Of a stretch of 38,484 nucleotides of DNA, positions 3,711 through 27,989 are shown one piece after another. The notes under the pieces were generated by a model. It was not told the DNA's origin, searched no databases, and saw nothing but the letters and a program-made list of their open reading frames with translations. Position 1 is the first letter of the stretch; each line of letters opens with the position of its first letter. This DNA comes from an uncultured Planctomycetales bacterium. GTDB lineage: Bacteria; Planctomycetota; Planctomycetia; Isosphaerales; Isosphaeraceae. The stretch is taken from assembly GCA_903926465.1 (NCBI GenBank), contig CAIYJE010000108.1, positions 1 through 38,484 on the forward strand, given 5' to 3'. A program made the position numbers and the translations under genes.

Positions 3711-3802
3711 GCATCACCTTCATCGTTCAAAAAACCGGCGAATCCCGATCGACGGATGACAAACCGCATCCGTCGATCGAAATCCATATTACGCCAACGA
3801 TC

Positions 3803-4291: not shown

Positions 4292-4363
4292 GTTGAGAAA
4301 AACCTCAGGCTAAAAACTTGGAGAGAACGAACGTGAGTGAACGGAAATGGCAAGGCCCCCAGG

Positions 4364-5434: not shown

Positions 5435-5624
5435 GGTTCACTCCCAGGGGGGTCGTTCGCAAGAGTCGTTTGGGACTGCCGTCTTTCCCCTGCTCGACGG
5501 CCTGCCTAGTATAAGCCGGGCACTCTGAGTCGCCAACCAACCAACCCCACTCACGCCACTGGCGGCGGCCCTGCTTGCGCCTTGCCTCTGGCTGTTTCTC
5601 TCGTGACGGAAGGTAGCTTCGTTC

Positions 5625-6176: not shown

Positions 6177-6350
6177 GTTGAGCTAAGTTTGGCATGTCAA
6201 CCCCGAGGGGCCACTCCAAATCTGGGGATTCAGTCCGAAACAACTACCACTGCGGCGTCCAGGCTTGCGTTCGCACCAAGAGCCAGGACAATTGTAGGGA
6301 AGCAAAGGGCGGTACGGAGGGCGGGCCAGCGGCACCTGGGAGGAGCGGCA

Positions 6351-8309: not shown

Positions 8310-8324
8310 CCCGGCGGTGCTTGA

Positions 8325-9347
8325 TCAAGGCTGCTCCCGTGGCTTACCCAGGGCATCGAAGTCATTGAACTGGAAGATGTAGGCCCACCAGTCATTGAGC
8401 CGGCCGTTGTCGGTGTTCACGCCGGAGCTGTGCGGTAACCGCGTGAACCACCATTTGAGGTAGTTGCGCTGATAGTCGGGACCGCCCCAGGTCTCACACG
8501 TGACCCTGGCTTTTTTTCCGGTCAGCTTCGGGTAATCCAGCCAGTCGTCGGCCGAACTTTCCACGGCCAAGGGATTGGCATAGTCATAATCTCGCACGCC
8601 GTTGGGCGGGTAATGACAGGAGCCCACAGCCGCAACACCGCTTGACTGGTGGGCGTTGGCGGCAAACCGAGCCCAGTCACTGTCGAGCACTTCAGCCTTC
8701 CAGCCACCAAAGACGCGGCTCATGGTGGCCTCGGTCCGGTGCCCCAGATTGTGGATCATCTCGGCCGGGCCGCGCTCGTTGTTAAACCCCATGATGGCAA
8801 ACGCACGCTTGCACTTCACCTCGGGGGCATCGTACACCGGGCCGTTGATCACAAAGGCCCCACGCCCGGCCATGGCGCTCTCGGCAAAGCCACAGTAGGG
8901 AAACCCCATCCACCAGACCTCATCAAACTCGCCCGCCTCAACCCGCTCGGCCAGCCGATGCTGCGCGATGATCGCCGGGTAATCGGCCGGGTCAGGCTGG
9001 TGCCAGCCCCCCTTGGCCTTCCAGCACTCTGCAAACTGCTCACGGGTGTAGCGGAAGCCATCCACCTTCACCGGAAACTCATCAAGATTGTCCCAGCCGG
9101 TGATCTTGAACTGAACCAGGCCATAACTGACCTCTTTCACGTCGGCCGCATACTGCTCTGCCAGCTTGTGAGGGTCGTTCCAGCCATACTGCTGATGCAG
9201 CCGCTGGCCGGACCCAGCCTCCACAACGGGATCAAAGTTCAACACGTGGACCCGTACCGTGATCGGCTGGGGCGCATCACCATGGGCCAATGGCCCAGAG
9301 AAACCGGTCAGGGCCAGAAGCAACCCCAGGAATCGGAGTGTGTGCAT
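8325..9347 (-). CDS. secreted protein of unknown function with an HxxxH motif
   Basis: I favour ATG 9347 because the signal peptide (MHTLRFLGLLLALTG) begins there; an in-frame ATG at 9374 would add nine residues. The mature part is about 320 residues, rich in Trp and aromatic residues, with no domain I can name. A striking segment near residues 196-206 reads EMIHNLGHRTE: His199 and His203 spaced HxxxH, with acidic residues on both sides, a plausible metal site. Two further conserved-looking blocks are DEVWWMGFPYCGF near 142 and ESSADDWLDYP. It converges with the hydrolase gene upstream. It could be a metalloenzyme or a binding protein; I do not assign a function. Confidence 0.8.
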   Translation of the reverse strand: MHTLRFLGLLLALTGFSGPLAHGDAPQPITVRVHVLNFDPVVEAGSGQRLHQQYGWNDPHKLAEQYAADVKEVSYGLVQFKITGWDNLDEFPVKVDGFRYTREQFAECWKAKGGWHQPDPADYPAIIAQHRLAERVEAGEFDEVWWMGFPYCGFAESAMAGRGAFVINGPVYDAPEVKCKRAFAIMGFNNERGPAEMIHNLGHRTEATMSRVFGGWKAEVLDSDWARFAANAHQSSGVAAVGSCHYPPNGVRDYDYANPLAVESSADDWLDYPKLTGKKARVTCETWGGPDYQRNYLKWWFTRLPHSSGVNTDNGRLNDWWAYIFQFNDFDALGKPREQP

Positions 9348-9497
9348 GGGTGGGCCCAGGTTTGGAAGTTGCATGTTTTTGGGCTATTCTTCACGTAACC
9401 CCTGAAAACCCGCCAGAATGAAGCGCCCGTCGATCCCACTGGAGGCGAGGAGGAATACGGATCTCAGCACCAAACGCGCAACTTCAAACAGCTCAGG

Positions 9498-10532
9498 TCA
9501 GGGTTTCTCGAAGCCAGCTTGTTCGACGTTTGCGTCTACCGGTCCGCGCCTCACAAACTTCTGGGCCCGCTGCCCCTGAATATCGCCCAGGTAGAGAGTG
9601 CCATCGGTAGCAAAGGTCAGCGCGTGCACCCAGTCCACCGACCCCGGCTTGTTCCCCTGAGACAGCGTCCAGCGGTTGCGTACCGATCCCGTGGGTTCAA
9701 ACTCCACCACAATCTGGTCGCGGGGTGGAATTCCAGGCGGTAGTGCCTTGATGAACTGAATCTTTCGCATCGGTGAGGAGCCACAGGCAAAAATCCGGCC
9801 CTGGGGCGAGACCCAAAGATCCCAGGGCATCAGAATGTCGGTCCACTCGGCCAGAAAGGCACCGGCGGCGTCAAAAATCTGGATCCGGCCATTGCTGCGG
9901 TCGGCCACGTACAGCCGCCCCGCCGGATCAAACACCACCGCATGCGGCAACCGGAACTGACCTGGACCGGTTCCCTCCGTCCCAAACGCCTGGAGAAACT
10001 TGCCGGCGGAGTCAAACCGGACCACCCGGTTATTGCCATAACCATCGGCTATGTAAACCGATCCGTCGGGACCCACGGCCGCGTCGGTCGGCTGATCAAA
10101 ATGCGTTTCGTCTACCCCGGCAACTCCCAGGGTACCCAAGGTGCGAACCAGTTCCCCCTCGGGCGTGAATAACCGCACCGTATGATTACCAATATCCGTG
10201 ATCCAGGCTCGGCCCTCGGCATCAAATCCTAATCCGTGCGGCTTCTGGAAAATGCCGGCCCCCCAGCTTCGGATCAACTGGCCCCTGGCATCATAAATCC
10301 GGACCGGAACCGTGCTCCGGCTCAGCACCCACACCTGCCCAGAGCGGTCGATCTCAAGCGCGGACACCGCCCCATGGAACTCTGGAAGAGTGGGACCAGC
10401 CGGCCAGCCGGCCACAAACTGAAACGGGCTCGCGGATGGGGTGGGAGCGTCTTCCTCATGGGCCCCTGCCAGCCCCGCCAGGCTGGTCAAGAGTGCGGCC
10501 ATGAGCAAAATTCTTGCAAGGAAACAGTTCAT
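9498..10532 (-). CDS. secreted NHL-repeat beta-propeller protein
   Basis: Start set at ATG 10532, where a signal peptide begins (CFLARILLMAALLTSLAGLAGA); a longer frame reaches 10604 but adds 24 residues ahead of the signal. The 344-residue product carries consecutive NHL blades: GRAWITDIGNHTVRLFTPEGE, GSVYIADGYGNNRVVRFDSAGK and GRLYVADRSNGRIQIFDAAG. This pattern resembles the propeller of peptidyl-alpha-hydroxyglycine lyases, but I cannot confirm the lyase metal ligands, so catalytic activity is doubtful. Probably a periplasmic or surface binding propeller. Divergent from the TolC-family gene across about 325 bp. Confidence 0.85.
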   Translation of the reverse strand: MNCFLARILLMAALLTSLAGLAGAHEEDAPTPSASPFQFVAGWPAGPTLPEFHGAVSALEIDRSGQVWVLSRSTVPVRIYDARGQLIRSWGAGIFQKPHGLGFDAEGRAWITDIGNHTVRLFTPEGELVRTLGTLGVAGVDETHFDQPTDAAVGPDGSVYIADGYGNNRVVRFDSAGKFLQAFGTEGTGPGQFRLPHAVVFDPAGRLYVADRSNGRIQIFDAAGAFLAEWTDILMPWDLWVSPQGRIFACGSSPMRKIQFIKALPPGIPPRDQIVVEFEPTGSVRNRWTLSQGNKPGSVDWVHALTFATDGTLYLGDIQGQRAQKFVRRGPVDANVEQAGFEKP

Positions 10533-10858
10533 GAACGCGGCCCTGAGGTCAGTCACGGGGGGAATGCCAACTGCTGTAAGGCCAAGACATTCCGTCTCAA
10601 ACACCCATCCGGCTATCAGCTTCGATCCTCTACACTACCGAGCCACAAACCGCCAGGTACAGTAAAAATCGAAACTTCAGCGCCGACAAAACGGCCTGGG
10701 CCGGTCAGGAAAACTGGTTCACTCAGACCTTATTTAGGGCGCTCCCAACCTGGAGACCGGGAAATTGCCTTAGCTGGCAAATAGCAACGATCCGAATACC
10801 ACTATGTTACGTCGAATCAGGACGATTCGCTGCACTTCAAGTGCGCAGGATGCGGCCC
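10533..10858. other. divergent intergenic region between NHL and TolC-family genes
   Basis: No gene is supported here. It should contain promoters for both divergent genes. A short inverted repeat TTGCC/GGCAA (10765-10769 and 10776-10780) is present, but no convincing -35/-10 pair could be chosen by eye. Confidence 0.4.
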
Positions 10859-12436
10859 ATGCATGTTTCGACCCGATTCCTGGCACTGGCTGGGATAGGA
10901 TTTTGGCTGGTGACGTCAGGCTTTGCCCTGGCGCAGGGTCCACAGATTGATGTGGGTGGCGTTCCCACGTTGCCTCAGTCGCGCCTCAAGCTTGGGCGGG
11001 CGATTGGAGCCGTCGAATCTCCCTCATTGCTCCAGACCCCCTCGAACGCACCGATCTCTGGGCGAGCGGGTCCGTCGGTTAGCCGCGCCCCGGTACAAGA
11101 GTTCAACCCAGTGAGTCCAAAACCTGGGGCCTCGATGGAAACGCGGATTCCTGCCCCGCTCTCACTGGCTGAGGAAAAACCGCCCACGTTCGGTTCGCTT
11201 GGTGAACCGCTGCCGCCTCCCGAAGAGGGTGGGATCTCGCTCGATGAGGCCATTCAGTTGCTGGTCGAACGCAATATGGGCTTGATGGCGCTCCAGTATG
11301 AAATTCCGATGGCCAGGGCCGATATCCTGACGGCAAGCCTGCGGGCCAATCCGGTCTTCTATGCCGATAGCCAGTTGGTGCCTTACGGCATTTATTCGAA
11401 TGCCCGGCCCGGCGGCCAAACCCAGTACGACGTCAACGTGAACTGGCCCATCGACTTCAGCCGCAAACGTCAAGCTCGGACGGCCGTGGCGCAGAAGGCT
11501 AGCCTGGTCACCGAAGCTCAGTTCCAGGACGCCGTCCGGATCCAGATTGATAACCTCTACACGGTGGTGGTCGATGTGGCGGCCGCCAATGAAGCCGTGC
11601 GCTACAACGAAGCCTACGCCCGGGGCCTGACCAAGCTGGCTACGGTGTTTACGGAACGGGCTCAGGCCGGTGCCGTGCAGCAGTCTCAGGCCGATGCGCT
11701 CAGAGCCCAGGCCGAACGCGCGCAATTGCAGCTGCGGCTCGCCCGCTCGGCCGTGAAGTCCAACACACGCAAACTCGCCCTGCTACTCAACATGCGGGGG
11801 CAGGAAGCAGCCAATCTCAAGGTGTCTCTGAACCTTCGAGACACCCAACCGCTGCCCGAGGATGAAACATCCCTGCTGGAACGCGCCCTCCAAAATCGGC
11901 CCGATATCCTCGCCAGCCGGCTTGGCATCCAGCGCGCCTGTGCCGAAATCAAGCTGGCCAAGGCCAACAAGTATCCAGACGCCTACCTGCTCTACCAGCC
12001 CTACACGCTCCAGGACAACCGGCCGTTCGGACTCAAAAGCCCCACCTCCTGGGCCGTCGGCCTCACGGTTTCGGTTCCCCTCTTCAACCGCAACCAAGGG
12101 GTGATTGAACGGGCCCGACTCAACGCCGACCAGACCCGGATGGAACTGGCGGCCATTGAGGATTCCGTGGCCACCGAAGTCGAACTGGCCATCCGAGAAT
12201 TCGAACTCAGCCTGGACTCGGTCGTCGAGTTCGAAAAGGAAGTCATTCCCGCATCGCAGCGGGTCTATCAAACGGCCCTCAAACGCTTCAATGAAGGGCT
12301 TGATACCGTGGATGCCTTCTCGGAAGGGCAACGGGATTACAACGAAACCATTCGCGACTACCGAGACGCTCTGGTCCGGCACCGCCGCGCCGTGCTCGAC
12401 CTGAATACCGCCGTGGGTGTTCGGCTGCTGCCCTGA
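10859..12436 (+). CDS. TolC-family outer-membrane efflux protein
   Basis: An open frame begins at GTG 10841, but ATG 10859 has AGGA about 9 nt upstream and starts a clean signal peptide (MHVSTRFLALAGIGFWLVTSGFALAQ), giving 525 residues. After a Pro-rich linker to about residue 120, two OEP repeats follow, with long heptad-rich helices (alanine- and arginine-rich around 200-310 and 400-500) and the tandem pattern ISLDEAIQLLVERN / SLLERALQNRPDILASRLGIQ typical of CzcC/CusC/TolC-like channels. It would form a trimeric outer-membrane/periplasmic conduit for export. No membrane-fusion protein or RND/ABC pump gene is adjacent, so its partners must be elsewhere. Confidence 0.92.
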   Translation: MHVSTRFLALAGIGFWLVTSGFALAQGPQIDVGGVPTLPQSRLKLGRAIGAVESPSLLQTPSNAPISGRAGPSVSRAPVQEFNPVSPKPGASMETRIPAPLSLAEEKPPTFGSLGEPLPPPEEGGISLDEAIQLLVERNMGLMALQYEIPMARADILTASLRANPVFYADSQLVPYGIYSNARPGGQTQYDVNVNWPIDFSRKRQARTAVAQKASLVTEAQFQDAVRIQIDNLYTVVVDVAAANEAVRYNEAYARGLTKLATVFTERAQAGAVQQSQADALRAQAERAQLQLRLARSAVKSNTRKLALLLNMRGQEAANLKVSLNLRDTQPLPEDETSLLERALQNRPDILASRLGIQRACAEIKLAKANKYPDAYLLYQPYTLQDNRPFGLKSPTSWAVGLTVSVPLFNRNQGVIERARLNADQTRMELAAIEDSVATEVELAIREFELSLDSVVEFEKEVIPASQRVYQTALKRFNEGLDTVDAFSEGQRDYNETIRDYRDALVRHRRAVLDLNTAVGVRLLP

Positions 12437-12453
12437 GGTCCAGTTTGGACCTC
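12435..12453 (+). terminator. hairpin overlapping the stop codon of the TolC-family gene
   Basis: A perfect 8-bp stem (GAGGTCCA at 12435-12442, TGGACCTC at 12446-12453) with a 3-nt loop starts inside the stop codon. No T-run follows, so classical intrinsic termination is uncertain; it may instead protect the mRNA 3' end. Confidence 0.4.
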
Positions 12454-12482
12454 TCCTCCCGATTGCTGGAGATGCATGACCC

Positions 12483-13130
12483 ATGGATGCCCGTTCTGCC
12501 CGCCGTCGAACAGCTAGCCTTCAGTTCGAGCCAGTCGAATCTCGGATCCTTCAGTCGGTTGCCCCACTGATTGCGCTGAGTCAACTGCGGGCCCAGGCCG
12601 CCCAGGTCCACCAGCTCAATACCACGTCTACATCCCTATCTGCGTCTACCCCCACTCCGTACCAGCAACGGCGAATGGCCTTCAATGCCCACTTCCTGGG
12701 CAAATTCGCCCAGGGCCCCGGCCTGTACACCGATCAGCGGACACAGGTCTACCTCAAAGCCGAAGGGACCTCCAACCAGCTCTTGCATGGAGCCGTTCAG
12801 CTTGCCTTCTCCATCCCCCTGAACACGGCCACGGCCGCCACCGGCGTGGCCAACTTGACCGATAAAAACATTGCCCAGACCGGCACCCAGATTGCCATGG
12901 ACCTGATGGCCATTCCCGGCGCCGTGGATACGCATGGTCGTCCAACCGCGTTCAACTGGACCGTCAACGGTGGCAGCGGCGGCATTTACACCAGTGCCAG
13001 CGGCCAGGGGACCGTGCAGATTCGTTACTTTCCCGGTGGATCTCACCTGCACCAGGGATTTGTGGGAAGCACGGCCGTGATCTTCACCGGCCAGATCACA
13101 AGCACCGGTGTGAACAACATCCTGCGGTAA
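12483..13130 (+). CDS. small secreted protein with planctomycete N-terminal motif (unknown function)
   Basis: 215 residues. Starts with a basic stretch (RSARRR) and then FEPVESRILQS at about residues 15-25, a variant of the L-E-x-L-E-x-R-x-L-L-S motif at the N-terminus of many planctomycete extracellular proteins. The rest is Thr/Ser/Gly/Ala-rich with a beta-strand look: a repeated HGAVQLAFSIPL-type segment and a C-terminal GGSHLHQGFVGSTAVIFTGQI. There is no cysteine and no catalytic motif. The ATG lies 46 bp after the TolC-family stop and follows the purine-rich CTGGAGATG. Probably a cell-surface or matrix protein. Function unknown. Confidence 0.75.
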   Translation: MDARSARRRTASLQFEPVESRILQSVAPLIALSQLRAQAAQVHQLNTTSTSLSASTPTPYQQRRMAFNAHFLGKFAQGPGLYTDQRTQVYLKAEGTSNQLLHGAVQLAFSIPLNTATAATGVANLTDKNIAQTGTQIAMDLMAIPGAVDTHGRPTAFNWTVNGGSGGIYTSASGQGTVQIRYFPGGSHLHQGFVGSTAVIFTGQITSTGVNNILR

Positions 13131-13277
13131 GCCTGGGTGTAAGGGATTGAGTCGGACCACTGGGCATCGTAGCCTGGAAAGACCCAACGAGCCGGGCCGT
13201 CACCGCGCTTCGGACTTCAACCTCTGACACGCACACTCGTTTCACCTCGCCCCAGCTTCCGCGCGGAGAGCCCAGTC

Positions 13278-14552
13278 ATGCAGCTTGCAAGTCCGACCCG
13301 CCGTGTCTTCCTGGGTTCCCTGGCCGCCAGCCTGCCAGCCACGGCGGCCCTGGCCCGTACGCAAACCGCTGAAGATCGGGTTCGTGTGGCTGTGATCGGC
13401 CTGAATGGCCGCGGTCTGGATCTGGCCGCGCTGTTCGCAAAGAGCGATGGTTCCGAGGTTGTGACGGTCTGTGATTGCGATGCCCGCGTACTGGCCAAAG
13501 GGGTAGCAGCCGTTGAGAAAGCTGGTGGCAAAACCCCACATACCGAGCAAGATTTCCGCCGGGTGCTCGACGACAAGAACGTTCACGCTGTGGCCATTGC
13601 CACGCCCGACCACTGGCACGGCCCCATGACCATTTTTGCCTGCCACGCAGGCAAAGATGTGTATGTTGAGAAGCCCGCCTGCCACAACGTGGCCGAGGGG
13701 CAGGCCATGATCGAGGCCGCCCGCAAGTACAACCGCGTTGTCCAGCTTGGCACCCAGCGCCGGAGCGCGGCCCATATTGCCGACGCCATGGCCCACGTTC
13801 GGTCGGGGGCGCTGGGAAAGATTGGACTGGCCAGGGCCTGGATCCATCAGCAGCGACAACCGATTGGCCATGCCACCCCCGGCCCGGTCCCCGAGGGGCT
13901 CGACTGGACCCTGTGGCAGGGGCCGGCTCCGGCGCAGCCGTTCATCCCCAACCGGGTCCACTACAACTGGCACTGGTTCTGGCACTGGGGGACCGGTGAA
14001 CTGGGCAACAACGGCATCCATGCGCTCGACGTGGCCCGCTGGGGCCTGAACGTGGAAGCCCCCCTGCGTGTGACCTCCGGCGGCGGCAAGTACGTGTTTG
14101 ACGACGACCAGGAAGTGCCAGACACCCAGAACGTGACCTGGGAGTTTGACAATTGCGCCATCACCTGGGAACACCGGATGTGGTCCAAGCACGGCCTTGA
14201 GGGCGGCTCCGCGTTTGGCACGGCCTTTTACGGAGACAAGGGCACGCTGATTGTGGATGACAAGGGCTGGCGTGTGGAAGACGGTGAGAAGGCCGGCGGC
14301 CCCACCACCGCCGACATCGGCCCGCACATCGCCAATTTCCTGGACTGCGTGCGCACCCGCAACAGGCCCAACGCCGACATTGAAACCGGCGTGCTGAGCA
14401 CCCGGCTTTGCCTGCTGGGCAACATCGCCCACCGCACCGGCCGCAAGCTCACCTTCAACGCCGCCACCTGGAACTTCCCAGGCGATGCCGAGGCCAACGC
14501 CTTGCTGACACGAGATTACAACCCGGCGTTCGACCCCATGAAGCCGGCCTGA
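13278..14552 (+). CDS. Gfo/Idh/MocA-family oxidoreductase, Tat-exported (1)
   Basis: 424 residues with ribosome binding site GGAG. A twin-arginine signal is evident (TRRVFLGSLAASLPATAALA, residues 7-26), so the folded NAD(P)-containing enzyme is exported. The Rossmann fold begins VRVAVIGLNGRG (a GxNGxG variant), followed by CDCDARV. The family active-site motif is VEKPACHN near 130-138, preceded by ATPDHWHG. The C-terminal alpha/beta domain carries WHWFWHWGTGELGNNGIHALDVARW. Such enzymes oxidise or reduce sugars or inositols, and planctomycetes have many exported copies. The specific sugar is not deducible. A second paralogue lies at 15874. Confidence 0.92.
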   Translation: MQLASPTRRVFLGSLAASLPATAALARTQTAEDRVRVAVIGLNGRGLDLAALFAKSDGSEVVTVCDCDARVLAKGVAAVEKAGGKTPHTEQDFRRVLDDKNVHAVAIATPDHWHGPMTIFACHAGKDVYVEKPACHNVAEGQAMIEAARKYNRVVQLGTQRRSAAHIADAMAHVRSGALGKIGLARAWIHQQRQPIGHATPGPVPEGLDWTLWQGPAPAQPFIPNRVHYNWHWFWHWGTGELGNNGIHALDVARWGLNVEAPLRVTSGGGKYVFDDDQEVPDTQNVTWEFDNCAITWEHRMWSKHGLEGGSAFGTAFYGDKGTLIVDDKGWRVEDGEKAGGPTTADIGPHIANFLDCVRTRNRPNADIETGVLSTRLCLLGNIAHRTGRKLTFNAATWNFPGDAEANALLTRDYNPAFDPMKPA

Positions 14553-14586
14553 GCCGGGAACGGCAACCGGACACTCTCAGGCCGCT

Positions 14587-14918
14587 TTACTCAGCCTCCA
14601 GCCGGCCTTCCAGGTGAAAGTCAACCGGCAGCCTGGCGTTGTTTTGGATGATGAACCAGTAGGATCCGGGGGCCAGTTTCACGGTCCCCTCGTAGCTGGT
14701 GCCCCGGAAATTCGTGAGTGACAGAACGAGATCCTCGGGGCGGAGGGCCTGGTCGCGATTTTCTTGCTCCAGCCGTGCCCGGTGGGTTTGATCTTTCATG
14801 AACTGAAAACCGAAGGGGCCCTGCGAGCGGATTGTGAACGAGAAGGTACAGGACCGGGTCACGCGAATTTCATGATCCCACGCACGATCCTGGGGAACGG
14901 TCTGCCCGGCGTCGAGCG
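14587..14918 (-). pseudogene. out-of-frame C-terminal half of a split secreted protein
   Basis: The minus-strand frame ending at 14587 reads as good protein well upstream of its only start-like codon (GTG 14862): the codons from about 14916 give LTLDAGQTVPQDRAWDHEIRV and run on into TRSCTFSFTIRSQGPFGFQF. There is no ribosome binding site or start at the head of that stretch. It joins the end of the preceding gene exactly if one C is added to the CCCC run at 14922-14925, giving NIP-LTLDAGQTV. I therefore read it as the separated C-terminal beta-rich domain of the protein starting at 15503, about 305 residues when joined. Sequencing error and true mutation cannot be told apart here. Confidence 0.65.
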
Positions 14919-15503
14919 TCAGGGGATATTCTTTTCGGGAAGGTTGGCAGCTTCCGCCAGGCGAAAGGTCAGGGCGGCCGATTCCACGTCTTCCACGGTT
15001 GCGGCCGGGCCCACGCCCGTCACCAGCGTTGCCCGCTCTGGGCCAATGAATGCATAAATAAAACCAAACTGGTCGCCGGGTAATCCCAGCAGTCCCTCGC
15101 CTCGCATCCGGATTCTGAGGGCCGGCTTGCCCCCCAGCAGCCCCGCTTCAACGGCCGTGTTTTCAAATTTGGGGGAGCGAGTTTTGAAAAATTCGAGGTA
15201 ATCGGTCAGCACCTGCTCGGGGTTGGGCCGGTCAGGATTGATTGTGAATTGCTTCACTTCCAGGATTCCAACGCCACTCTGGCCCCAGGCAGTGCGTGTT
15301 TGCTGACCAACCGTTCTGGCAACCGGGCCCGTCATCCCCTTCAGGATCCTGAGCGAGCCGCCGCCGCAGCTCACTTCGTCTGAGAGTTTTGCCAGTTCCG
15401 GCTGCGCAGGTGCCCATTCCTGAAGGGCGGCCTGCTGGGCCTGAAGGTCGCGGTCTGTGAAGGAAATCAACACCGCGGCCGCCCAGATCATTCGCCATAT
15501 CAT
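14919..15503 (-). CDS. secreted protein of unknown function, 3' end apparently frameshifted
   Basis: I choose ATG 15503, with AGGGG upstream and a signal peptide (MIWRMIWAAAVLISF) at the start; an in-frame ATG at 15557 precedes that signal with implausible residues. 194 residues as it stands. The mature part resembles a PsbP/LpqN-like alpha-beta domain: LEVKQFTINPDRPNPEQVLTDYLEFFK, then GGKPALRIRMRGEG and a closing strand ATLVTGVGPAATVEDVESAALTFRLAE. This resemblance is by pattern only. It ends at TGA directly after a CCCC run, and the coding frame continues in another register (see 14587-14918). It lies opposite in strand to the two oxidoreductases that flank it. Confidence 0.72.
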   Translation of the reverse strand: MIWRMIWAAAVLISFTDRDLQAQQAALQEWAPAQPELAKLSDEVSCGGGSLRILKGMTGPVARTVGQQTRTAWGQSGVGILEVKQFTINPDRPNPEQVLTDYLEFFKTRSPKFENTAVEAGLLGGKPALRIRMRGEGLLGLPGDQFGFIYAFIGPERATLVTGVGPAATVEDVESAALTFRLAEAANLPEKNIP

Positions 15504-15557
15504 GGTTGATCCCCTGTGCTGGCGTCTCAATGCCGAGGAACGGACCCAAAGTTCCAT

Positions 15558-15873
15558 CCATCGTCTTTACTCGAACTGACGGGTAAGGACAAGGATTCCG
15601 CGGTTAACGCTGGTACACAAAAGAGGGGGCAGGCCAGCCGCCATTGGCACCCAGCTTTGCCCGAAAACCGAACCGAACCGCCACAACCCGTGCGGCCAAA
15701 ACAGTCAGCCAGGCCAACCGCTGCCTTGTCTGGCCATGGGTGGTATGATCAGGATACGTGATGGTCGATCATAAAGTTCGCACCATCCTCCAGACCCCGT
15801 GTTGCCTGGGACACCGCCTGGTATCCCAGTGGTTTAACACGCTCTCCCCAGCCCGAGAGAGGCGGCCCCGCTC
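15558..15873. other. intergenic region upstream of the second oxidoreductase
   Basis: About 316 bp between divergent genes, without a supported coding frame. It should hold the promoters for both sides. No clear promoter hexamers or strong hairpin could be assigned. Confidence 0.4.
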
Positions 15874-17205
15874 ATGAGCGATTCCCCGACTCGACGTCAT
15901 TTCCTGGCCAGTTCCGCGGCATCGGCCACAGGATTTGGGATGTTCAACATTCTTGGTGCGCGAACCTCGCGTGCCATGGTGGCGCCGCTGTCGGCCCTCA
16001 AAACACCGGTGGTGGGCCTGATTGGTGCGGGGGGCATGGGGCGTGCCAATACCAACGTCTTCATGGACCACAAGGTGCCGGTGGCGGCCGTGTGCGATGT
16101 GGATGCCAGCCACGCCGGCGCAGCGGCCGACGAAATTGAGAAGAAGCAGGGAAAACGGCCCGAGATTTACAAGGACTTTCGCAAGCTGCTGGAACGCCAG
16201 GATCTGGATGCGGTGATTATTGGTACACCCGACCACTGGCATGCCCTGCCCTGCATTCACGCGGCCGAAGCCAAGAAAGACATGTATCTGGAAAAGCCAA
16301 TCAGCCATGATATCCACGAGGCCCGAACCATGGCGGCCGCCTGCGCTCAACACGGGCGGGTGGTGCAGGTTGGCACCTGGCAGCGGAGCACGGCCGACTT
16401 CGTGGCCGCCCTGGATTATGTGCGATCCGGCAAACTGGGTCGCATCGTCATGGCCAGGGCCTGGAAGACCGACGAAGCCAATGTGGGTAAGGGCCAGGTG
16501 CAAGACCCACCCAAGGAACTGGATTATGACTTCTGGGTCGGTCCCGCTGAGTTCGTTCCCTACAAGGGGAACAATTGCCATTACAACTGGCGATGGTTCT
16601 GGAACACGGCGGCCGGCATGACCGGCGACTGGGGTGTCCACATGATCGATATCGCCCTGCTCGGCCTGGGTAAAGGGGGCGACGATGTGGCCCTTCCCCT
16701 GGAAGCGTATAATGATGGTGGCAAATTTGCCTTCCCCGATGACGACCGCACCACCCCCGATACCCAGCTTGCCGTGCTCAAATATCCCAACGCAGTCTTG
16801 CAGTGGGAAACCAACCGCCGGCCGATTGACGGCGAGCATGACAACGGAACCCAATTCATTGCCGAGAACGGAAACACCGTAACCGTCTGGCGGGGCGGCT
16901 GGTCCATCAAGACCAAGGACAACCAGGATATTGAGAAACCAGCCAACCCCGAAGGAATGAACGGTCTGAACGCCCACGTCCGGAATTTCCTGGATTGCGT
17001 GGAGAACCGCCAGCAACCGCGGTCAAACATTGCCTCGATGGCCAAAACGACCATCGTTTGTCACCTGATCAACGCTAGCTACCTGGCGGGGGGCCCCGTT
17101 CGGTTCAACCCAGAGAAACTGGACATCGAAGGGGAAGCCGGCAAGACCACCCTGGCCTACCGCCGCAATTATCGCGCCCCCTGGACGCTGCCCTCATACG
17201 CCTGA
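15874..17205 (+). CDS. Gfo/Idh/MocA-family oxidoreductase, Tat-exported (2)
   Basis: 443 residues with GAGAGAGG upstream of the ATG. Twin-arginine signal TRRHFLASSAASATG at residues 6-20. NAD(P)-binding VGLIGAGGMGRAN near 48-60 with the classical GxGxxG, then CDVDASHAG. Active-site segment GTPDHWHALP and LEKPISHD. C-terminal domain WRWFWNTAAGMTGDWGVHMIDIALLG. It is a paralogue of the gene at 13278: same motif order and export route, but diverged across most positions. Expected role is exported sugar or polyol redox chemistry. The pair brackets a divergent secreted protein, so it is not a simple tandem operon. Confidence 0.93.
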   Translation: MSDSPTRRHFLASSAASATGFGMFNILGARTSRAMVAPLSALKTPVVGLIGAGGMGRANTNVFMDHKVPVAAVCDVDASHAGAAADEIEKKQGKRPEIYKDFRKLLERQDLDAVIIGTPDHWHALPCIHAAEAKKDMYLEKPISHDIHEARTMAAACAQHGRVVQVGTWQRSTADFVAALDYVRSGKLGRIVMARAWKTDEANVGKGQVQDPPKELDYDFWVGPAEFVPYKGNNCHYNWRWFWNTAAGMTGDWGVHMIDIALLGLGKGGDDVALPLEAYNDGGKFAFPDDDRTTPDTQLAVLKYPNAVLQWETNRRPIDGEHDNGTQFIAENGNTVTVWRGGWSIKTKDNQDIEKPANPEGMNGLNAHVRNFLDCVENRQQPRSNIASMAKTTIVCHLINASYLAGGPVRFNPEKLDIEGEAGKTTLAYRRNYRAPWTLPSYA

Positions 17206-17299
17206 ATTTGAACTTTCCAATACCGGGACGCCGGTTGACGCCGGCTCCCCTGCTTCGTTCGTTTCCACCGGTACGGGATCCTCTGGGAGATTATCGCCC

Positions 17300-18442
17300 A
17301 TGCGTCTTCGATGGCTTGGTATGGCACTGCTGGCAATGGAACTTGGTGGGGCCGCGGCCTCATCAGTTCAGGCTCAAATCTACTACCCCTACGGCTACCG
17401 CAATTACGGCTGGGGCGGCTGGGGGCTTGGCAACCAGTACGGCTCCCAGGCGGCTGGGCTGGGCTGGATGGCCGCCGGCAAGGGCGTCTACAACCTGGAT
17501 ACGGCCGAAGCCCGTTCGATCAACGTTCAGACGAACATGCAGTACAACGAGTACATGTACGAGAGCCTGCGGCAGAACCAGGCCCGGCTCGTGGCTGAAC
17601 ACGAGAAAGAATACCAGGACTACAAAGACGCCTCCAACGCCGCGCAAGACCGGCTCCGCAACCACCCCACGTCGCGTGATATCCAGTCGGGCGAGGCGCT
17701 GAACGTGGCCTTGGTGGAGTTGAGCGACCCCCGCTACGCCGGCGAAATCGGCAAGCTGGCGAATAATGTTCCCCTTGACGGCCGCCTGATCGAGAACATG
17801 CGGTTCCGGAGCACGGTCGAAGTGGTCTCGGGCACACTCGATAAACTCACCTCAGCCAAGCCAACCGGCCTGCTGGCCGGCCCTGAGTTCGCGGACGATG
17901 TCAAGGCGTATCAGGCGGTTTGCAAAGAGATCAATGACGAGATCTCCAAGAGTGGCACCGTGAAGCCGGCCACCGTGGGCAAACTGCGTGACCTGCTCAA
18001 GGCCGCCTATGACAAGGTTGAGAAGATGAAGCCCCAGGACATCAACCTGAAAATCAAGGCCGCGCATAGCCTCAAGGCCATGCTCGGGATGTGCTACATG
18101 TTCAACGACTCTCAGGCGCTCGATATCTACCTTGCAGGCGTGGGTGAGAAAAAGAATGTCACCGTGGGTGAGCTGCTCAGCTTCATGAAGTCGTTCAACC
18201 TCACGTTTGGTTCGGCGGAGAATCCGGCCCAGAACAATGCCTACGCCCAGGTCTACCAACTCTTGGTTGACCTGCGTGGCCAAGCTTTTGGTGAGGGAAC
18301 CGGCACCCTGCCGCTGGATGCCCCACGCAAAGACGCAGATCCAAATAGCGTGGCTGCCTATTACAGTGGGGTTCACCCCACTGAGCTGAACCATGAAAGC
18401 CCACGCAAGAACCCGCCCTCACCGCCCGCTCCGGGCCAGTAA
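17300..18442 (+). CDS. secreted, coiled-coil-containing planctomycete-type protein (unknown function)
   Basis: 380 residues. ATG with GGGAGA upstream. Signal peptide MRLRWLGMALLAMELGGAAASSVQA, then a Tyr/Gly/Trp-rich stretch (YYPYGYRNYGWGGWGLG, about 29-46). A charged helical segment follows at roughly 75-125 (Q/E/K/R-rich, probable coiled coil), then alternating helical regions with LRDLLKAAYDKVEKMKPQDINLKIKAAHSLKAML. A Pro-rich tail ends the protein (NPPSPPAPGQ). I recognise no domain. Followed by a strong hairpin, so probably its own transcription unit or the end of one. Periplasmic or surface structural role is inference only. Confidence 0.8.
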   Translation: MRLRWLGMALLAMELGGAAASSVQAQIYYPYGYRNYGWGGWGLGNQYGSQAAGLGWMAAGKGVYNLDTAEARSINVQTNMQYNEYMYESLRQNQARLVAEHEKEYQDYKDASNAAQDRLRNHPTSRDIQSGEALNVALVELSDPRYAGEIGKLANNVPLDGRLIENMRFRSTVEVVSGTLDKLTSAKPTGLLAGPEFADDVKAYQAVCKEINDEISKSGTVKPATVGKLRDLLKAAYDKVEKMKPQDINLKIKAAHSLKAMLGMCYMFNDSQALDIYLAGVGEKKNVTVGELLSFMKSFNLTFGSAENPAQNNAYAQVYQLLVDLRGQAFGEGTGTLPLDAPRKDADPNSVAAYYSGVHPTELNHESPRKNPPSPPAPGQ

Positions 18443-21792: not shown

Positions 21793-22163
21793 TCGCGTAA
21801 GAATGTCCGGTTTTTTTATTGGGAAACGCATCCCTCGACATTTCGGCTGCGGAATATAGAATACGTTCTTCCCCCGACATGGACCGTCCCGCGCCTGTTG
21901 TCCCGGAACTTCTGATCGGCATTACGGCTTGCCGCGCTCGGCCGGTACCCCCGGCCTCGATGTCGCGTGAGACCTTGGACTGGTAAGGACACCCGTCGTG
22001 CCTGATCTTCTCCGTGTAGACAGCCTTGCCACCGGCAAGGCGATGCTCTGGATTTGGAGCGTCCGGTCGTTTGGGACGGTTCGTCGAGGGTGTTTGGGTG
22101 AGACCTGACCCGAGTGAGACCCGTCTCCCTGACCATACCAAGCTTGCGAACCGAGAAATGACG
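21793..22163. other. intergenic/leader region upstream of mscL
   Basis: About 370 bp without a convincing gene. It contains a perfect 8-bp hairpin (GCCTTGCC 22023-22030, GGCAAGGC 22034-22041, 3-nt loop) about 120 bp before mscL. This could be part of the leader transcript or the end of an unseen small RNA. An open frame extends from 22026 into mscL, but its translated part lacks MscL character and is not used. Confidence 0.45.
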
Positions 22164-22700
22164 ATGGCGAATCCTCCCGAGAAATCGTTCCTGGACGACC
22201 CAGGAGATAAAGTTCTCTCCTTGCTGGACGACTCCGGGGAAAAAGTCTTTTCGTTGCTGGAAGAATTCAAGAACTTTGCGCTCAAGGGGAACGTGGTTGA
22301 CCTGGCGGTGGGTGTGATCATTGGCGGTGCCTTCGGTAAAATTGTGGACTCGCTGGTCAAGGACGTGATCATGCCCTTGATCTCGCTGGTCACGCCCGGC
22401 AAAGCCGCCTATGAAGACTGGACCTTCCACTGGGGCGAAAAAATCGTCCCCTATGGCAAGTTTTTGGCCGAGATCGTCAACTTCCTGATCCTCGCCGCGG
22501 CCCTCTACCTTTTCATCGTAAAATTCCTGGGCTTCATCTTGCATACCAAGCTGAAGGAAGAAGCAGCCCCACCTGCTCCACCCACCAAAGAAGAAGTTTT
22601 ACTGACCGAGATCCGCGATTTGCTGAAGGCCAGTCAGACTCATACCAGGGCGAGTTCTCAGGGGAACATGCAGGAAGTGCCACCCCCTCAGGCCGTTTGA
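22164..22700 (+). CDS. mscL: large-conductance mechanosensitive channel MscL
   Basis: Start chosen at ATG 22164, since GAGAA sits at suitable spacing before it; ATG 22158 is two codons earlier. 178 residues, somewhat longer than the usual 130-150 because of an N-terminal acidic extension (two FLDDPGDKVLSLLDD-like segments). The core is classic: FALKGNVVDLAVGVIIGGAFGKIVDSLVKDVIMPLISL, with the TM1 pore helix, then PYGKFLAEIVNFLILAAALYLFIV as TM2 and a C-terminal helix EVLLTEIRDLLKA. It forms a pentameric tension-gated emergency valve in the inner membrane. It is 36 bp upstream of the cyclase-like gene, apparently in one operon. Confidence 0.96.
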   Translation: MANPPEKSFLDDPGDKVLSLLDDSGEKVFSLLEEFKNFALKGNVVDLAVGVIIGGAFGKIVDSLVKDVIMPLISLVTPGKAAYEDWTFHWGEKIVPYGKFLAEIVNFLILAAALYLFIVKFLGFILHTKLKEEAAPPAPPTKEEVLLTEIRDLLKASQTHTRASSQGNMQEVPPPQAV

Positions 22701-22736
22701 CTCGCACCAGCGGAAACACAGGGAGCGTAACGATAC

Positions 22737-24848
22737 ATGTTCAAAAACCTGAGCATTCAGTCCAAGTTGATTTTGATGCTGCTGTCGGTGGCACTCACCT
22801 GCATTGGGCTGCTGGGCTGGATCGGCTTTCGTAGCGGACGGGAAACGCTGACCAACGCTATCTTCAACCAACTGGTGAATATCCGGATCAACAAGGCCAA
22901 CTTGCTCAAGGCGGAACTGCAGTCGGTCCGCGATGCGGTTCTCACGATCTCGGAGTCCAAGTCCACGCTGGAGGCATTTCAGGCCTTCCATGAAGGCTAC
23001 CAGGAACTAGAGTCGAAATCGTTCCCGCGTGAATACGACGAGAAACTCAAGGCCTGGTACCGCGATCAGTTCCTGCCAAAACTTGAGCAATACGTAGATG
23101 CCAAGCCCGACGTAGACGTGTACCTTCCACGCGGCAGTGCCTCTCGCTACTTGCAATATCAATACATTGCCAATAGCCCATATGAATATGAGCAAATGCA
23201 GCGGCTCGATGCTGCCGACGATGATACCAATTACAGCGCGGCCCACCGCGTCTACCACCCCAAAATCCGCGCCATTGCCGAGCGGTACGGATGGGAAGAT
23301 GTGCATTTTATTGATCACCACACCCTGGAAATTGTTTACAGTTACCAGAAGACCACCGAGTTCGCCACCAACCTCAACGACGGACCCTACGCCAATTCCA
23401 ATCTGGCGAGGCTGGTGCAGTCGGTCCGCAAGAACATGGACCGGGGCGATTATCGGTTCGAGGATTTTGAGTTTTATCGACCTGGGCTCAACCGCCCCAG
23501 CGCGTTTCTGGCCGCACCTATTTTTGATGAAAGTCGGATGATCGGCATCCTCACCGTCCAGTTTCCGATCGCCAAGATCAACCGGTTGATGACCAACCAC
23601 GAACAGTGGGAAAAAGAAGGCCTGGGCAAAACCGGGGAAGTCTATCTCGCCGGTTCCGATCGGCGGTTTCGGTCCCGTTCGCGGTTTATGTTTGAGGACA
23701 AGAAAAACTTTCTTGAACAGATAAGCCTGGCCGGCACCTCGGACAGCGTGATTCAACGCATGGACAAGGGCGGCACGGCCGTCATGTACCTGACGAGCAA
23801 TTCCGAGCCGGTGATGAAAGCCCTGGAGGGGCAAGAATTCCGAGGCCTGGCCAGCGATTACCGCAATATCCCGGTGCTGGCGTCGTCGGCCCCGGTGGAA
23901 GTTGAAGGGAATCGCTGGGCGATTGTGGCCAAGATGGATGAGTCTGAAGCCTTCCAACCCGTACGCAGCTATGCACGGCAGGTGCTCTTCACCTCGCTGG
24001 GCCTGCTACTGGGCACCACCCTGTTAGCCACGTTACTTTCAAACATCTTTGTTGGACCGATTCGTAAACTGGCGGCCGGCGCCCGCTTGGTTGCCAAGGG
24101 ACGCACCGACGTGAGCGTTAAACTCAAGTCCAAGGATGAGCTGGGGGAACTGGCAAACTCGTTCAACTCCATGACCCAGAAGCTGCACCAGAAGACCGAG
24201 CAGCTTCAGGAAAAGGTGCGTGAGAACGAGGAACTGCTACTCAATATTCTGCCCGGTTCCGTGGCCGCGCGACGGATGGGTGCCACCGAAGATGACCGCC
24301 TGGCCCAGAATTACTCGGACCTTACGGTCCTCTTCGCGTCGGTGGATGGGCTCGAAGAAATCCAGAGCGAACGCTCGGGCCAAGACGCCCTGGTCATGCT
24401 GAATGATCTGGTGGTGTTGTTCGACGAGGCGGCTGAAAAGTTTGGTGTGGAGAAGGTGAAGACCGTGGGTTCCACCTACATGGCCGTATGCGGCCTGTCG
24501 GTTCAAAGACCCGACCACACCAACCGAATCGCCGAGTTTGGTCAGGATCTGGTCAAGATTGTCGAACGATTCAACCGGGAACGCAACGTCCAGTTGCGAC
24601 TGATGGTGGGTATTAACGCGGGGCCCGTGGTCGGCGGTCTGGTGGGCCGGAACAAGTTCATTTACGACCTCTGGGGCGATACTGTGAGCATTGCCCAGGA
24701 ACTGCTCAACCTGCACGAGGGAAGTTCGCAGATTATCGTGACCGCGGCCGTGCATGACCGGCTCCAAGACCTGCATACCTTCGAGTCTGCGGGCGAAGCG
24801 ACGATCAAGGGCAGGAAACCGATCAAGACTTACGCCCTCAAGCTCTGA
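22737..24848 (+). CDS. membrane class III adenylate/guanylate cyclase homologue, catalytic residues lost (pseudo-cyclase)
   Basis: 703 residues, GGGAGCG before the ATG. TM1 spans about 10-32, an extracytoplasmic Cache-like sensor about 33-415, TM2 about 417-438, HAMP about 435-483, a coiled-coil linker about 483-503, and a class III cyclase homology domain about 525-700. Compared with mycobacterial Rv1625c-type cyclases recalled from memory, both metal-binding Asp are Ser (FASV, Ser535; VGSTYM, Ser579). The transition-state Asn and Arg are Ser651 and Glu655 (WGDTVSIAQEL). The base-specifying Lys575 and Asp644 are kept. The fold is well preserved otherwise, so it is probably a non-catalytic nucleotide sensor or a regulator of a partner. 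It sits between mscL and a channel with a cyclic-nucleotide-binding-like domain. Confidence 0.88.
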   Translation: MFKNLSIQSKLILMLLSVALTCIGLLGWIGFRSGRETLTNAIFNQLVNIRINKANLLKAELQSVRDAVLTISESKSTLEAFQAFHEGYQELESKSFPREYDEKLKAWYRDQFLPKLEQYVDAKPDVDVYLPRGSASRYLQYQYIANSPYEYEQMQRLDAADDDTNYSAAHRVYHPKIRAIAERYGWEDVHFIDHHTLEIVYSYQKTTEFATNLNDGPYANSNLARLVQSVRKNMDRGDYRFEDFEFYRPGLNRPSAFLAAPIFDESRMIGILTVQFPIAKINRLMTNHEQWEKEGLGKTGEVYLAGSDRRFRSRSRFMFEDKKNFLEQISLAGTSDSVIQRMDKGGTAVMYLTSNSEPVMKALEGQEFRGLASDYRNIPVLASSAPVEVEGNRWAIVAKMDESEAFQPVRSYARQVLFTSLGLLLGTTLLATLLSNIFVGPIRKLAAGARLVAKGRTDVSVKLKSKDELGELANSFNSMTQKLHQKTEQLQEKVRENEELLLNILPGSVAARRMGATEDDRLAQNYSDLTVLFASVDGLEEIQSERSGQDALVMLNDLVVLFDEAAEKFGVEKVKTVGSTYMAVCGLSVQRPDHTNRIAEFGQDLVKIVERFNRERNVQLRLMVGINAGPVVGGLVGRNKFIYDLWGDTVSIAQELLNLHEGSSQIIVTAAVHDRLQDLHTFESAGEATIKGRKPIKTYALKL

Positions 24849-24937
24849 TCGTCGGCTCCTGATTCCCCACTCCTATTTGCACCGCCGACCTACCAAGGCG
24901 GGGGCCTGGCCTCTTGAGATAAGGACAGCCACACACC

Positions 24938-26452
24938 ATGACGACTTCGTTCATCGATCGGCCCGTCATGCAATGGGCGTTGGTGCTGGGGATCGGGTTT
25001 CCTCTGCTGATGCTGGTGCTGGGAGAATTCATCTTCCGGAACCGCAAAAATCGGGGGCTGAGTTCCACTGTCTCGAACATCAGAAACCTGGTTCTTCCCA
25101 CGCTCGCCATCTGGCTCATGCTTCAGGAAGTGGTGGGGCTCCCAGCCGAAAGTACGGCCCATAAGCTGGTCGAGACTGCGTTCTGGATTTCGCTGATCTT
25201 TGCGGCCCTGACGTTTGTCAACGAAGTGATCTTTGGATCGGCCGCGGCGGAAACGGCTCGTGGCCGGGTTCCCAAGCTACTGCTCGACCTGCTCCGGTTG
25301 ATCCTGATCGTGATCGGTGGATCGATCGTCCTCTCCAAGGTCTGGGGCGCGAATCTTGCCTCGCTGGCCACGGCGCTGGGGGTGGGCTCGATCGTCATCG
25401 GTCTGGCGCTTCAGGAACCGCTCGGTAACGTGTTCGCCGGCCTGATGCTGCTGTTCGAACGTCCCGTGTCGCTGGGCGACTGGATCGACGTCGACGGCAA
25501 AATTGGCAAGGTTGTGGAGATCAACTGGCGATCGCTCCACCTGCTGACCCTGACCCAGGAACTGGTGATCGTCCCGAACTCGATTCTGAACAAGGGAACC
25601 TTCAAGAACCTGTCACGGCCCACGCAGCTCCGGATCGAAGAGATCATGATTGGCTTCTCCTACGATGATGCACCTAACAAGGTGAAACAGATCCTGCTCG
25701 ATGTGCTGCGTGACACTCCAGGTGTGTTGAACGTTCCATCGCCCGCGGTGCGAACTCGGGAATACGCCGATTTTTCGATCAATTATCAGGTGCGGATGCC
25801 AGTGGCCAGTCATGACGAACTCTCCAAAATTCGCGACGAGTTCATGACCCGCGTCTGGTACGCCGCGCAACGCCATGGCCTGACCATTCCGTTCCCAATC
25901 CGGACCGTGGTTCAGGAAACTCAAGAGCAAGTGACCGCCCGAACCGCTCCTCGGCCCCTGGAACTGCTCAAAAGATTCCCGATGTGGACCACCAGCCCAG
26001 GTGACAACGAGGCAGAGATCAACCAGGCGCACAATCTGGCCAAACATGCCCGCTACCGAAAATACACCACGGGCGAAACGCTGGTTCAGGTGGGCGAGCT
26101 ACTCGATGGTATTTCACTGGTGATCGAGGGTTCCGCCATCCTTCAGGCCATCGATAAAGAGGGGCAATTGCACAAGATCGCCGAAGTCGGACCGGGCGAA
26201 TTCTTTGGTGAAAGCTCGATTGCCTCCAGCCAAAATAGTGACTTCACCATCAAAGCCTCCAAGGATCTCACGGTGCTGGTTCTGGAACCGGACACGGTTC
26301 ATGAGTGGATCGGGCAACGACCCCGGCTGGCCCGCGAAATTGGGACCGTACTCGACCATCGCCGACGCGCAGCCCAAGCCAGCCGCAAGATTGGCTCATC
26401 GCATGAGATTACGAACGGCCAAGAGGGCAGACCCGTGGCTGCCAAGGGCTAA
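24938..26452 (+). CDS. MscS-family mechanosensitive channel with C-terminal cyclic-nucleotide-binding-like domain
   Basis: 504 residues. The ATG has AAGGA upstream. Hydrophobic helices lie at about 12-32, 48-66, 78-98 and 112-134. The pore helix and MscS beta domain follow: LATALGVGSIVIGLALQEPLGNVFAGLMLLFERP (143-176), GDWIDVDGKIGKVVEINWRS and VPNSILNKGTFKNLSRP. The MscS alpha-beta region ends near 325. A cNMP-binding beta-roll occupies about 360-470, with phosphate-binding cassette GEFFGESSIASSQNSDF at 420-436. Glu425 is present, but the Arg expected near 434-435 is Ser/Asp. The architecture matches bacterial cyclic-nucleotide-gated MscS-like (bCNG) channels, with a non-canonical ligand pocket. 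It starts 89 bp after the cyclase-like gene. Confidence 0.93.
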   Translation: MTTSFIDRPVMQWALVLGIGFPLLMLVLGEFIFRNRKNRGLSSTVSNIRNLVLPTLAIWLMLQEVVGLPAESTAHKLVETAFWISLIFAALTFVNEVIFGSAAAETARGRVPKLLLDLLRLILIVIGGSIVLSKVWGANLASLATALGVGSIVIGLALQEPLGNVFAGLMLLFERPVSLGDWIDVDGKIGKVVEINWRSLHLLTLTQELVIVPNSILNKGTFKNLSRPTQLRIEEIMIGFSYDDAPNKVKQILLDVLRDTPGVLNVPSPAVRTREYADFSINYQVRMPVASHDELSKIRDEFMTRVWYAAQRHGLTIPFPIRTVVQETQEQVTARTAPRPLELLKRFPMWTTSPGDNEAEINQAHNLAKHARYRKYTTGETLVQVGELLDGISLVIEGSAILQAIDKEGQLHKIAEVGPGEFFGESSIASSQNSDFTIKASKDLTVLVLEPDTVHEWIGQRPRLAREIGTVLDHRRRAAQASRKIGSSHEITNGQEGRPVAAKG

Positions 26453-26633: not shown

Positions 26634-27518
26634 TCAGTCGTCGAGTTCGGCCACCAGCACTTCACGCAGCTTGGCCAGGGCCCGGGTCTTCTCGTTGCTC
26701 ACCGTCTTGGGAGCCAGGCCCCACTGCTCGGCAATTTCGGCCGGCGTGAACCCTTGCAGCGTTGCCCGAATCACATCCGCCTCACGCGGCTTCAGACTGC
26801 GATTGATGGCGTCATTCAGCACGCCGCGCCAGGTCTCGGCACCATCTCCACCCACGGCCCGCGCGGCCGGTTCGGGCTGCTCATCAATGGCCAGGTAGGT
26901 TCGCTGCCGCAACGCCCGCTTCTTGACCATATCCACGGCCCGGAAAAAGTCTGGGCCCAGCGAAGATTCCCGGTTCAGAACCTGAGGGATCCCGCCCTGG
27001 CCCACCTGGGCCAGCATCTGATCGAACCCTGGCCGCCCCAGTTCCTCAAGCATCACCGTATGCACCGCCTGCGTGCAATCCTCTTGCTGAGAACTCGGAA
27101 TACCGGCCCGTGACCAGGCACGGCCCAGGTACCGGTCGAGCTGGCGGAGTCCCGCATCCAGAAACGCAGGGTCCAGAACCGCGGTCCCGGTCCCACCCAC
27201 TGGCGGGGTAACCGCCGAGGCTTGCCCTTGGTCATGGACCAAGCCCAGCCAGTCGTCGCTCACCGTCTGGTTCAGGGCCTCGTCCCAGGCGTCTGAGCCT
27301 GCCAAAGCACTATGACCCAAGGGGGTGACCAGCCCTGGCCAGCTCACCGTCTGGGTGATCTGCGGAGCCAGTGAGACGGCACCCTCAAATGTGCTGTGCT
27401 CGGCTACGATGGGCACGAGTTCGAGCGCGGCCGCATCCAGCAACCGGAGCGCTTCCAAAGCCTCCAGCCGGGGTGCATAGCGTGACCGGTTCGTTTTCGT
27501 GCCCCGCTCCGATCTCAC
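26634..27518 (-). CDS. atypical sigma-70/ECF-like protein with N-terminal planctomycete motif
   Basis: Start set at GTG 27518, with a perfect GAGAGGGG about 7 nt upstream; a TTG 12 codons earlier lacks this. 294 residues. Residues about 13-28 read RYAPRLEALEALRLLD, a version of the motif found near the N-terminus of planctomycete exported proteins. A low-complexity spacer runs to about 115. A short sigma region-2-like helix pair follows (DAGLRQLDRYLGRAW...QQEDCTQAVHTVML, 121-156), then a linker. A clear region-4-like helix-turn-helix lies at about 242-284 (LKPREADVIRATLQGFTPAEIAEQWGLAPKTVSNEKTRAL). It probably directs RNA polymerase to a small regulon. No anti-sigma gene is adjacent. Confidence 0.8.
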   Translation of the reverse strand: MRSERGTKTNRSRYAPRLEALEALRLLDAAALELVPIVAEHSTFEGAVSLAPQITQTVSWPGLVTPLGHSALAGSDAWDEALNQTVSDDWLGLVHDQGQASAVTPPVGGTGTAVLDPAFLDAGLRQLDRYLGRAWSRAGIPSSQQEDCTQAVHTVMLEELGRPGFDQMLAQVGQGGIPQVLNRESSLGPDFFRAVDMVKKRALRQRTYLAIDEQPEPAARAVGGDGAETWRGVLNDAINRSLKPREADVIRATLQGFTPAEIAEQWGLAPKTVSNEKTRALAKLREVLVAELDD

Positions 27519-27989
27519 GTTGCGACCCCTCTCAAAAAGCTCGATTTGACCCAACCTTGCTCAGGAAATCGCTCCGGTACTCACCCCATTTACGAAGCGA
27601 ACCGGGTGTTGGCCCAAGAAAAGCCAGAATCGTTGATTGTTCTCTTAATCAATGTTGCCAGCTCGGGCGAGCCCAATTCCTGGCAACCTAGTCTTTACCG
27701 CGTGCACCCACCCGGCGTGACACAGAGAACGCCACTCAAGATCTTGGTGAACCGCAGTTTTTCTGCCGAACACCCCAGACGTCTAACCACCAACGTCAGA
27801 CACGCACCAAACCACCCAAACCACCACAGAGCTTGGGTAAGCTGGATCATCTTGAGTCACTGAAGCCTGAGGCAAAACCTGGGTGAGGATCAAAAGGCGA
27901 ATCGCGGGACGCGATCCATACCGCGACCAGTCTATTGTAGATTCTGCCAGCGGATCTGACAAAGGGGTAGTGGCGTTTCCGCACCTGGG
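27519..27989. other. intergenic region upstream of the sigma-like gene
   Basis: About 470 bp with lower GC than its flanks and no supported coding frame. A small perfect hairpin (ATCGCG/CGCGAT, 27901-27915) lies about 75 bp downstream of the ABC ATPase stop, in minus-strand orientation. The promoter for the sigma-like gene must lie here but could not be recognised. Confidence 0.4.

Follow-up and report, generated by a model that had tools for sequence, protein, structure and literature searches.

A lineage-wide planctomycete gene pair: an apparently inactive class III cyclase sensor and an MscS-type channel that has most likely lost cyclic-nucleotide binding

Three plus-strand genes lie at positions 22164-26452 of the window, by which we mean the whole 38,484-nucleotide stretch of planctomycete DNA that was analysed. 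They encode MscL, a membrane sensor with Cache-like, HAMP and class III cyclase domains, and an MscS-type channel with a C-terminal cNMP-like domain. The source assembly comprises 6.9 Mb in 207 contigs, with a completeness of 99.66%. The features are as follows.

22164-22700, plus strand: mscL, 178 aa (PF01741, 131.3 bits, above the cut-off of 27.4)
22737-24848, plus strand: membrane sensor with Cache-like region, HAMP domain and putative pseudo-cyclase, 703 aa (Pfam matches, residue check)
22839-23951, plus strand: extracytoplasmic sensor region, Cache-like, residues 35-405 (dCache_1, 28.3 bits, under the cut-off of 45)
24036-24191, plus strand: HAMP domain, residues 434-485 (48.8 bits)
24303-24842, plus strand: putative pseudo-cyclase domain, residues 523-702 (Guanylate_cyc, PF00211, 143.8 bits, and residue alignment)
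24938-26452, plus strand: MscS-type channel with C-terminal cNMP-like domain, 504 aa (PF00924, 67.2 bits; PF00027, 47.9 bits)
26057-26311, plus strand: cNMP-like domain, residues 374-458 (PF00027 match and cassette alignment)

The gap between mscL and the cyclase gene is 36 nt (22701-22736) and that between the cyclase and channel genes 89 nt (24849-24937); the genes and both gaps agree with the initial annotation, which had proposed a single mechanosensitive operon. A consensus scan detected no plus-strand terminator-like site within 22164-26452 and a single promoter-like site, at 21835-21862 upstream of mscL, which is no evidence of a promoter because shuffled sequence yields more (mean 1.9). 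Promoter and terminator consensus, with counts no higher than the shuffle means, was accordingly discarded as an uninformative guide to transcript units. In the AlphaFold2 model of the sensor (mean pLDDT 86) the extracytoplasmic part forms a mixed helix/strand domain flanked by two long helices, and Foldseek matched the model to adenylyl cyclases (E 6e-17), the match list being dominated by the cyclase domain. The channel model has a mean pLDDT of 78, and the Pfam matches of this protein describe an MscS core followed by a cNMP fold. We take the two models as support for the domain assignments only.

When 148 relatives were searched, the channel and the cyclase protein as queries both placed the same eight relatives on top, and five named loci (L032-L036), all of them planctomycete records and two labelled Candidatus Kuenenia, match the sensor over its full length. 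Family profiles were then built from 10 members and run over the 397 genomes of the class, the best two or three candidates per genome being scored, so that extra copies are possible. The cyclase profile matched 21 of the 397 genomes at E < 1e-140 (next match 1.8e-104) and the channel profile likewise 21 at E < 1e-130 (next match 2.5e-79). Both genes are present in 20 genomes; the cyclase stands alone in genome G394 and the channel alone in G191, each at a contig end. A scan of 392 genomes of the phylum provided one more near channel, L201 of genome G525 (2.3e-147), around which 14 kb of sequence contain no cyclase. The pairing spans several families of the class and, since the channel occurs in six of 45 genomes of Isosphaeraceae (the taxonomic family of the window, whose own genome is counted), its distribution is patchy.

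The resulting set holds 24 family loci, namely those of the class genomes, including two pairs of G040, together with L034 from one further named genome. Both genes are present at 22 of these loci, and at every one the cyclase gene lies directly upstream of the channel gene on the same strand; these include L148, where the cyclase is cut by a contig end, and L173, where it is interrupted by stops. No third conserved neighbour was found, the widest family of flanking ORFs being present at 8 of the 24 loci and other neighbours varying. Because the pair is conserved in order and strand at 22 of 22 loci, a functional link between sensor and channel is well founded on comparative grounds, as the initial annotation had anticipated in assigning the two to one system.

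A different picture emerges for MscL, which that annotation had included as a backup valve. The gene at 22164-22700 is the only MscL found in the window's genome, where the 36-nt gap and the shared strand favour an osmotic-stress unit of three genes in which MscL is a built-in safety valve. MscL is encoded in none of the ORFs of the 23 other family loci, at 19 of which at least 900 nt of upstream sequence is visible and at four of which less than 120 nt is. It is present in 12 of 21 relatives, in eleven of them on a contig other than that of the pair and in one about 475 kb from it; as these are draft genomes, location on a separate contig is no measure of the real distance to the pair. Absent at the other loci (albeit with those four short flanks) and located elsewhere in the 12 relatives that have it, MscL was rejected as a part of the module, and we regard the three-gene unit as very unlikely. 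When relatives are examined for the proposed triad, the sensor and channel remain together and MscL was found to adjoin them only in the window. Judged by gene neighbourhood, the module is thus one of two genes, sensor and channel, with mscL as a local neighbour.

In class III cyclases one domain supplies two metal-binding aspartates and the other the substrate-specifying and transition-state residues, as outlined in an excerpt of PMC4174876. The cyclase of the window has serine at both metal positions (Ser535, 24339-24341; Ser579, 24471-24473) and Ser651 and Glu655 at those of the transition-state Asn and Arg, while the base-recognition residues Lys575 and Asp644 are kept. With Asp, Asp, Asn and Arg all replaced, we infer that the domain is inactive, which upholds what had been suspected from the sequence at the outset. 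The same condition extends throughout the family: both metal aspartates are found in 0 of 23 cyclases, the second aspartate in 0 of 23 and the transition-state Asn and Arg together in 0 of 23, and at most two of the four catalytic residues are kept in any member. Among 54 control domains from other loci of the search, 52 carry all four and two are truncated. One genome, G005, has multiplied the sensor. Six tandem family sensor genes on one strand occupy 1914-18281 of locus L104 (contig C56), of which the first alone has a channel beside it; a seventh lies on another contig (L106, 5253-7202). Neither metal aspartate is present in any of the six unpaired copies, and the copies are 34-45% identical.

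The cassette arginine of cNMP domains binds the cyclic phosphate. In the channel of the window, whose cassette reads FGESSIASSQNSDFTIKA, this site is occupied by Ser434-Asp435 (26237-26242), and Glu425 is kept. The arginine is missing from 22 of the 23 family channels, L172 being the exception, and Asp or Glu stands beside the site in 21 of 23 (L167 and L176 are without the acid). Other MscS-cNMP channels have kept it in 34 of 34 cases (26/26, then 8/8 at further distinct loci), a comparison set that excludes the truncated L195 and eight further profile matches. Most likely, therefore, to judge from the cassette, the cNMP domain of the channel no longer binds cyclic nucleotide. The designation 'MscS-cNMP (bCNG) channel' given initially is correct as to the MscS and cNMP folds but misleading in its ordinary sense, given the missing arginine. 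All four PF00027 matches in the window's genome, both strands considered, are without arginine at the aligned site, two of them aligning weakly. Besides the channel, a 198-aa protein of this genome (L253, G000:C127, 1339-1935) has a cNMP domain without the arginine and reads SPDF at that site, much like the NSDF of the channel.

Substitution rates bear on whether these genes are still of use. For the cyclase, dN/dS ranged from 0.07 to 0.17 over 9 pairs, and for the channel from 0.09 to 0.26 over 13; saturated dS left no ratio in 5 of 14 cyclase and 2 of 15 channel pairs, and several others had dS > 1. On these values both genes are shown to be under purifying selection. In-frame stops do interrupt the family cyclase at one locus (L173 in G302, 7002-9014), beside an open channel frame, as would be expected of decaying pseudogenes or chance neighbours. 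The selection data contradict such an explanation, frames are open in the other complete members and the pairing is kept while other neighbours change, so that its probability is next to nil.

Conservation is distributed unevenly over the two proteins. Mean pairwise identity in the family is 0.50 for the dead cyclase domain versus 0.42 for the sensor region, and, in the channel, 0.66 for the pore region and 0.31 for the cNMP-like domain, the least conserved folded part (L148, L173, L171, L169 and L178 are left out of these means). Family-specific conserved positions of the cyclase domain include Glu564, Cys585, Ser588, Arg597 and Gly633, in a residue-by-residue comparison against the 28 of 54 controls longer than 180 residues, which provide no letters past residue 661. 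No coevolution of the cyclase and cNMP domains beyond shared history was detected in 19 pairs, a set without L148 (partial), L173 (interrupted) and L171 (near-identical). That the cNMP-like domain evolves fast and shows no specific coevolution signal argues against a tight, conserved interface there.

In the channel tree all family channels fall into one clade (100/100), next to which stands L201, with the arginine kept; the family cyclases and the six extra G005 copies form one clade (100/100) apart from active cyclases, in a tree whose bootstrap is not fully settled. Given these single clades, the joint loss is, on phylogenetic grounds, one event or a short series in one lineage, without a repeat. 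Canonical neighbours of the same two kinds occur elsewhere. At L218 (G382, 6453-13079) a channel that has the arginine is directly preceded by the gene of a cyclase that has all four residues, and at L211 (G466, 1754-5626) and L212 (G447, 1746-5428) the cyclase, with D, D, N and R, comes after the channel, which has the arginine, the partners of the family pair in reverse gene order; in these two, channel and cyclase are both apparently competent. Akin to the family pair, all three loci have a class III cyclase gene adjoining an MscS-cNMP gene; unlike it, they have the catalytic residues and the cassette arginine. Their channels fall outside the family clade, as does the cyclase of L218. By their residues, these loci show that working pairs exist, and they are not direct ancestors of the family pair. 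Further upstream in L218 are a receiver-like ORF, judged by eye, and an ORF of 1021 aa that has a HAMP-like match.

Taken together, the pair most likely descends from a circuit in which a cyclase acted on a cyclic-nucleotide-gated MscS channel, and selection has most likely kept the adjacency and both folds after the two chemistries were lost in one planctomycete lineage. That this former cyclic-nucleotide circuit now works by protein contact is a reading to which we give about even weight. In such a mechanism, the Cache-like domain outside would take up an extracytoplasmic signal, while the HAMP domain and cyclase fold inside would make no cyclic nucleotide. The signal would turn a HAMP/pseudo-cyclase dimer that may touch the channel, the cNMP-like domain being the probable site, and this contact could shift the tension threshold or inactivation of the channel; the Cache signal would in this way be passed on to the channel. 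The more specific proposal, that the enzyme has become a mechanical relay and the receptor domain a docking site, with an extracellular ligand tuning a tension-gated channel by direct contact, we advance tentatively, at somewhat short of an even chance. If contact is indeed the mechanism, the G005 channel would be a hub for seven dead sensors, six in tandem and one elsewhere. In favour of the reading as a whole are the 22/22 pairing, the losses of residues in both proteins, the status of the dead domain as the sole class III cyclase domain found in its genome, the absence of the arginine from all four PF00027 matches of that genome, the low dN/dS, the better conservation of that domain than of the sensor region (0.50 versus 0.42) and the canonical cyclase-channel neighbours L218, L211 and L212. 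Against it are the poor conservation of the cNMP-like domain (0.31), the absent coevolution signal, the cassette arginine of L172, the confinement of the joint loss to a single lineage event and the kept base-recognition residues, which fit nucleotide binding equally.

Those residues make a nucleotide-binding relay the alternative that we take most seriously: the pseudo-cyclase would bind ATP or a related nucleotide without turnover, and the channel would receive from it both the nucleotide status and the Cache signal. Position 575 is Lys or Arg in 22 of 23 family cyclases, position 644 is Asp or Glu in all 23, and the first metal position is acidic in 18 of 23. The second, in contrast, is acidic in only 3 of 23 (Glu), 8 of 23 members retain the phosphate-stabilising Arg and Lys575 is lost in the extra G005 copies, and we consider this alternative unlikely. 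The pair might instead use a diffusible messenger of a non-canonical kind, the cyclase fold making, or the cNMP fold reading, some other small molecule by means of re-invented residues. Both folds are kept under selection, and the channel cassette has a recurrent pattern of its own with an acid in 21 of 23 members, as this would predict; the four catalytic residues, however, have no conserved replacement (A, G, E or S at the second metal position; T, S, N, A and others at the Asn position), which renders such a messenger distinctly improbable.

Lastly, the dead cyclase might be the C2-like half of an active heterodimer, its partner binding the metals as in mammalian adenylyl cyclase. The window's cyclase has the fold of class III adenylyl and guanylyl cyclases and its closest PDB sequences among them, and its best PDB sequence match is adenylyl cyclase 5, of which the higher-scoring C2 half likewise has serine at both metal positions. 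A C2 half, however, is required to supply Asn and Arg, found together in 0 of 23 family cyclases, and the window's cyclase, unlike the mammalian C2, is without both. Nor is a metal-binding partner to be found in its genome, where the dead cyclase itself is the one PF00211 domain, and an active heterodimer with another class III cyclase was thus rejected for this genome. G040 (100% complete) has two such domains, both family members, and G123, G220, G270, G341 and G347 have one each, again a family member, with G341 and G347 less than 60% complete; other family genomes hold further cyclases, several with all four residues. Against this background a C2-like role is extremely improbable. The mammalian C2 domain does form an inactive C2 homodimer, according to the same excerpt of PMC4174876.

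Among the systems that the pair most resembles, bCNG channels belong to the MscS superfamily and carry a cNMP domain at the C-terminus (Caldwell 2010; Malcolm 2012; both as cited in PMC4560390). The family channel has the same layout, in which a cNMP-fold domain follows the MscS pore and beta domain; it differs in missing the phosphate-binding arginine (22/23) and in its obligate pairing with a dead cyclase. The KCNH (EAG/ERG/ELK) channels with a CNBHD, as described in part of PMC7515569, offer an analogy only; the family channel belongs to another channel family and its sensor is a separate protein. Full-text literature searches, in which the title and start of the abstract were considered and most subscription journals are not covered, returned no paper on such a pair. 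Both class III cyclases and bCNG channels have been described before; no lineage-wide pair in which both chemistries are lost came up in the literature searched.

The pair has the appearance of a natural example in which a second messenger's maker and reader, both without their chemistry, are still held together under selection. It offers a means of testing whether contact alone suffices for signalling by cyclase and cNMP folds, and in what way the sensing of a ligand may be wired to a bacterial tension-gated channel. To annotate the two genes as an adenylate cyclase and a cNMP-gated channel is misleading for a whole lineage. Just 3' of the channel gene in the window, and convergent to it, lies a minus-strand ORF of 306 aa (26637-27554), the sole domain match of which is to a C-terminal sigma-70 region 4/LuxR-type helix-turn-helix.
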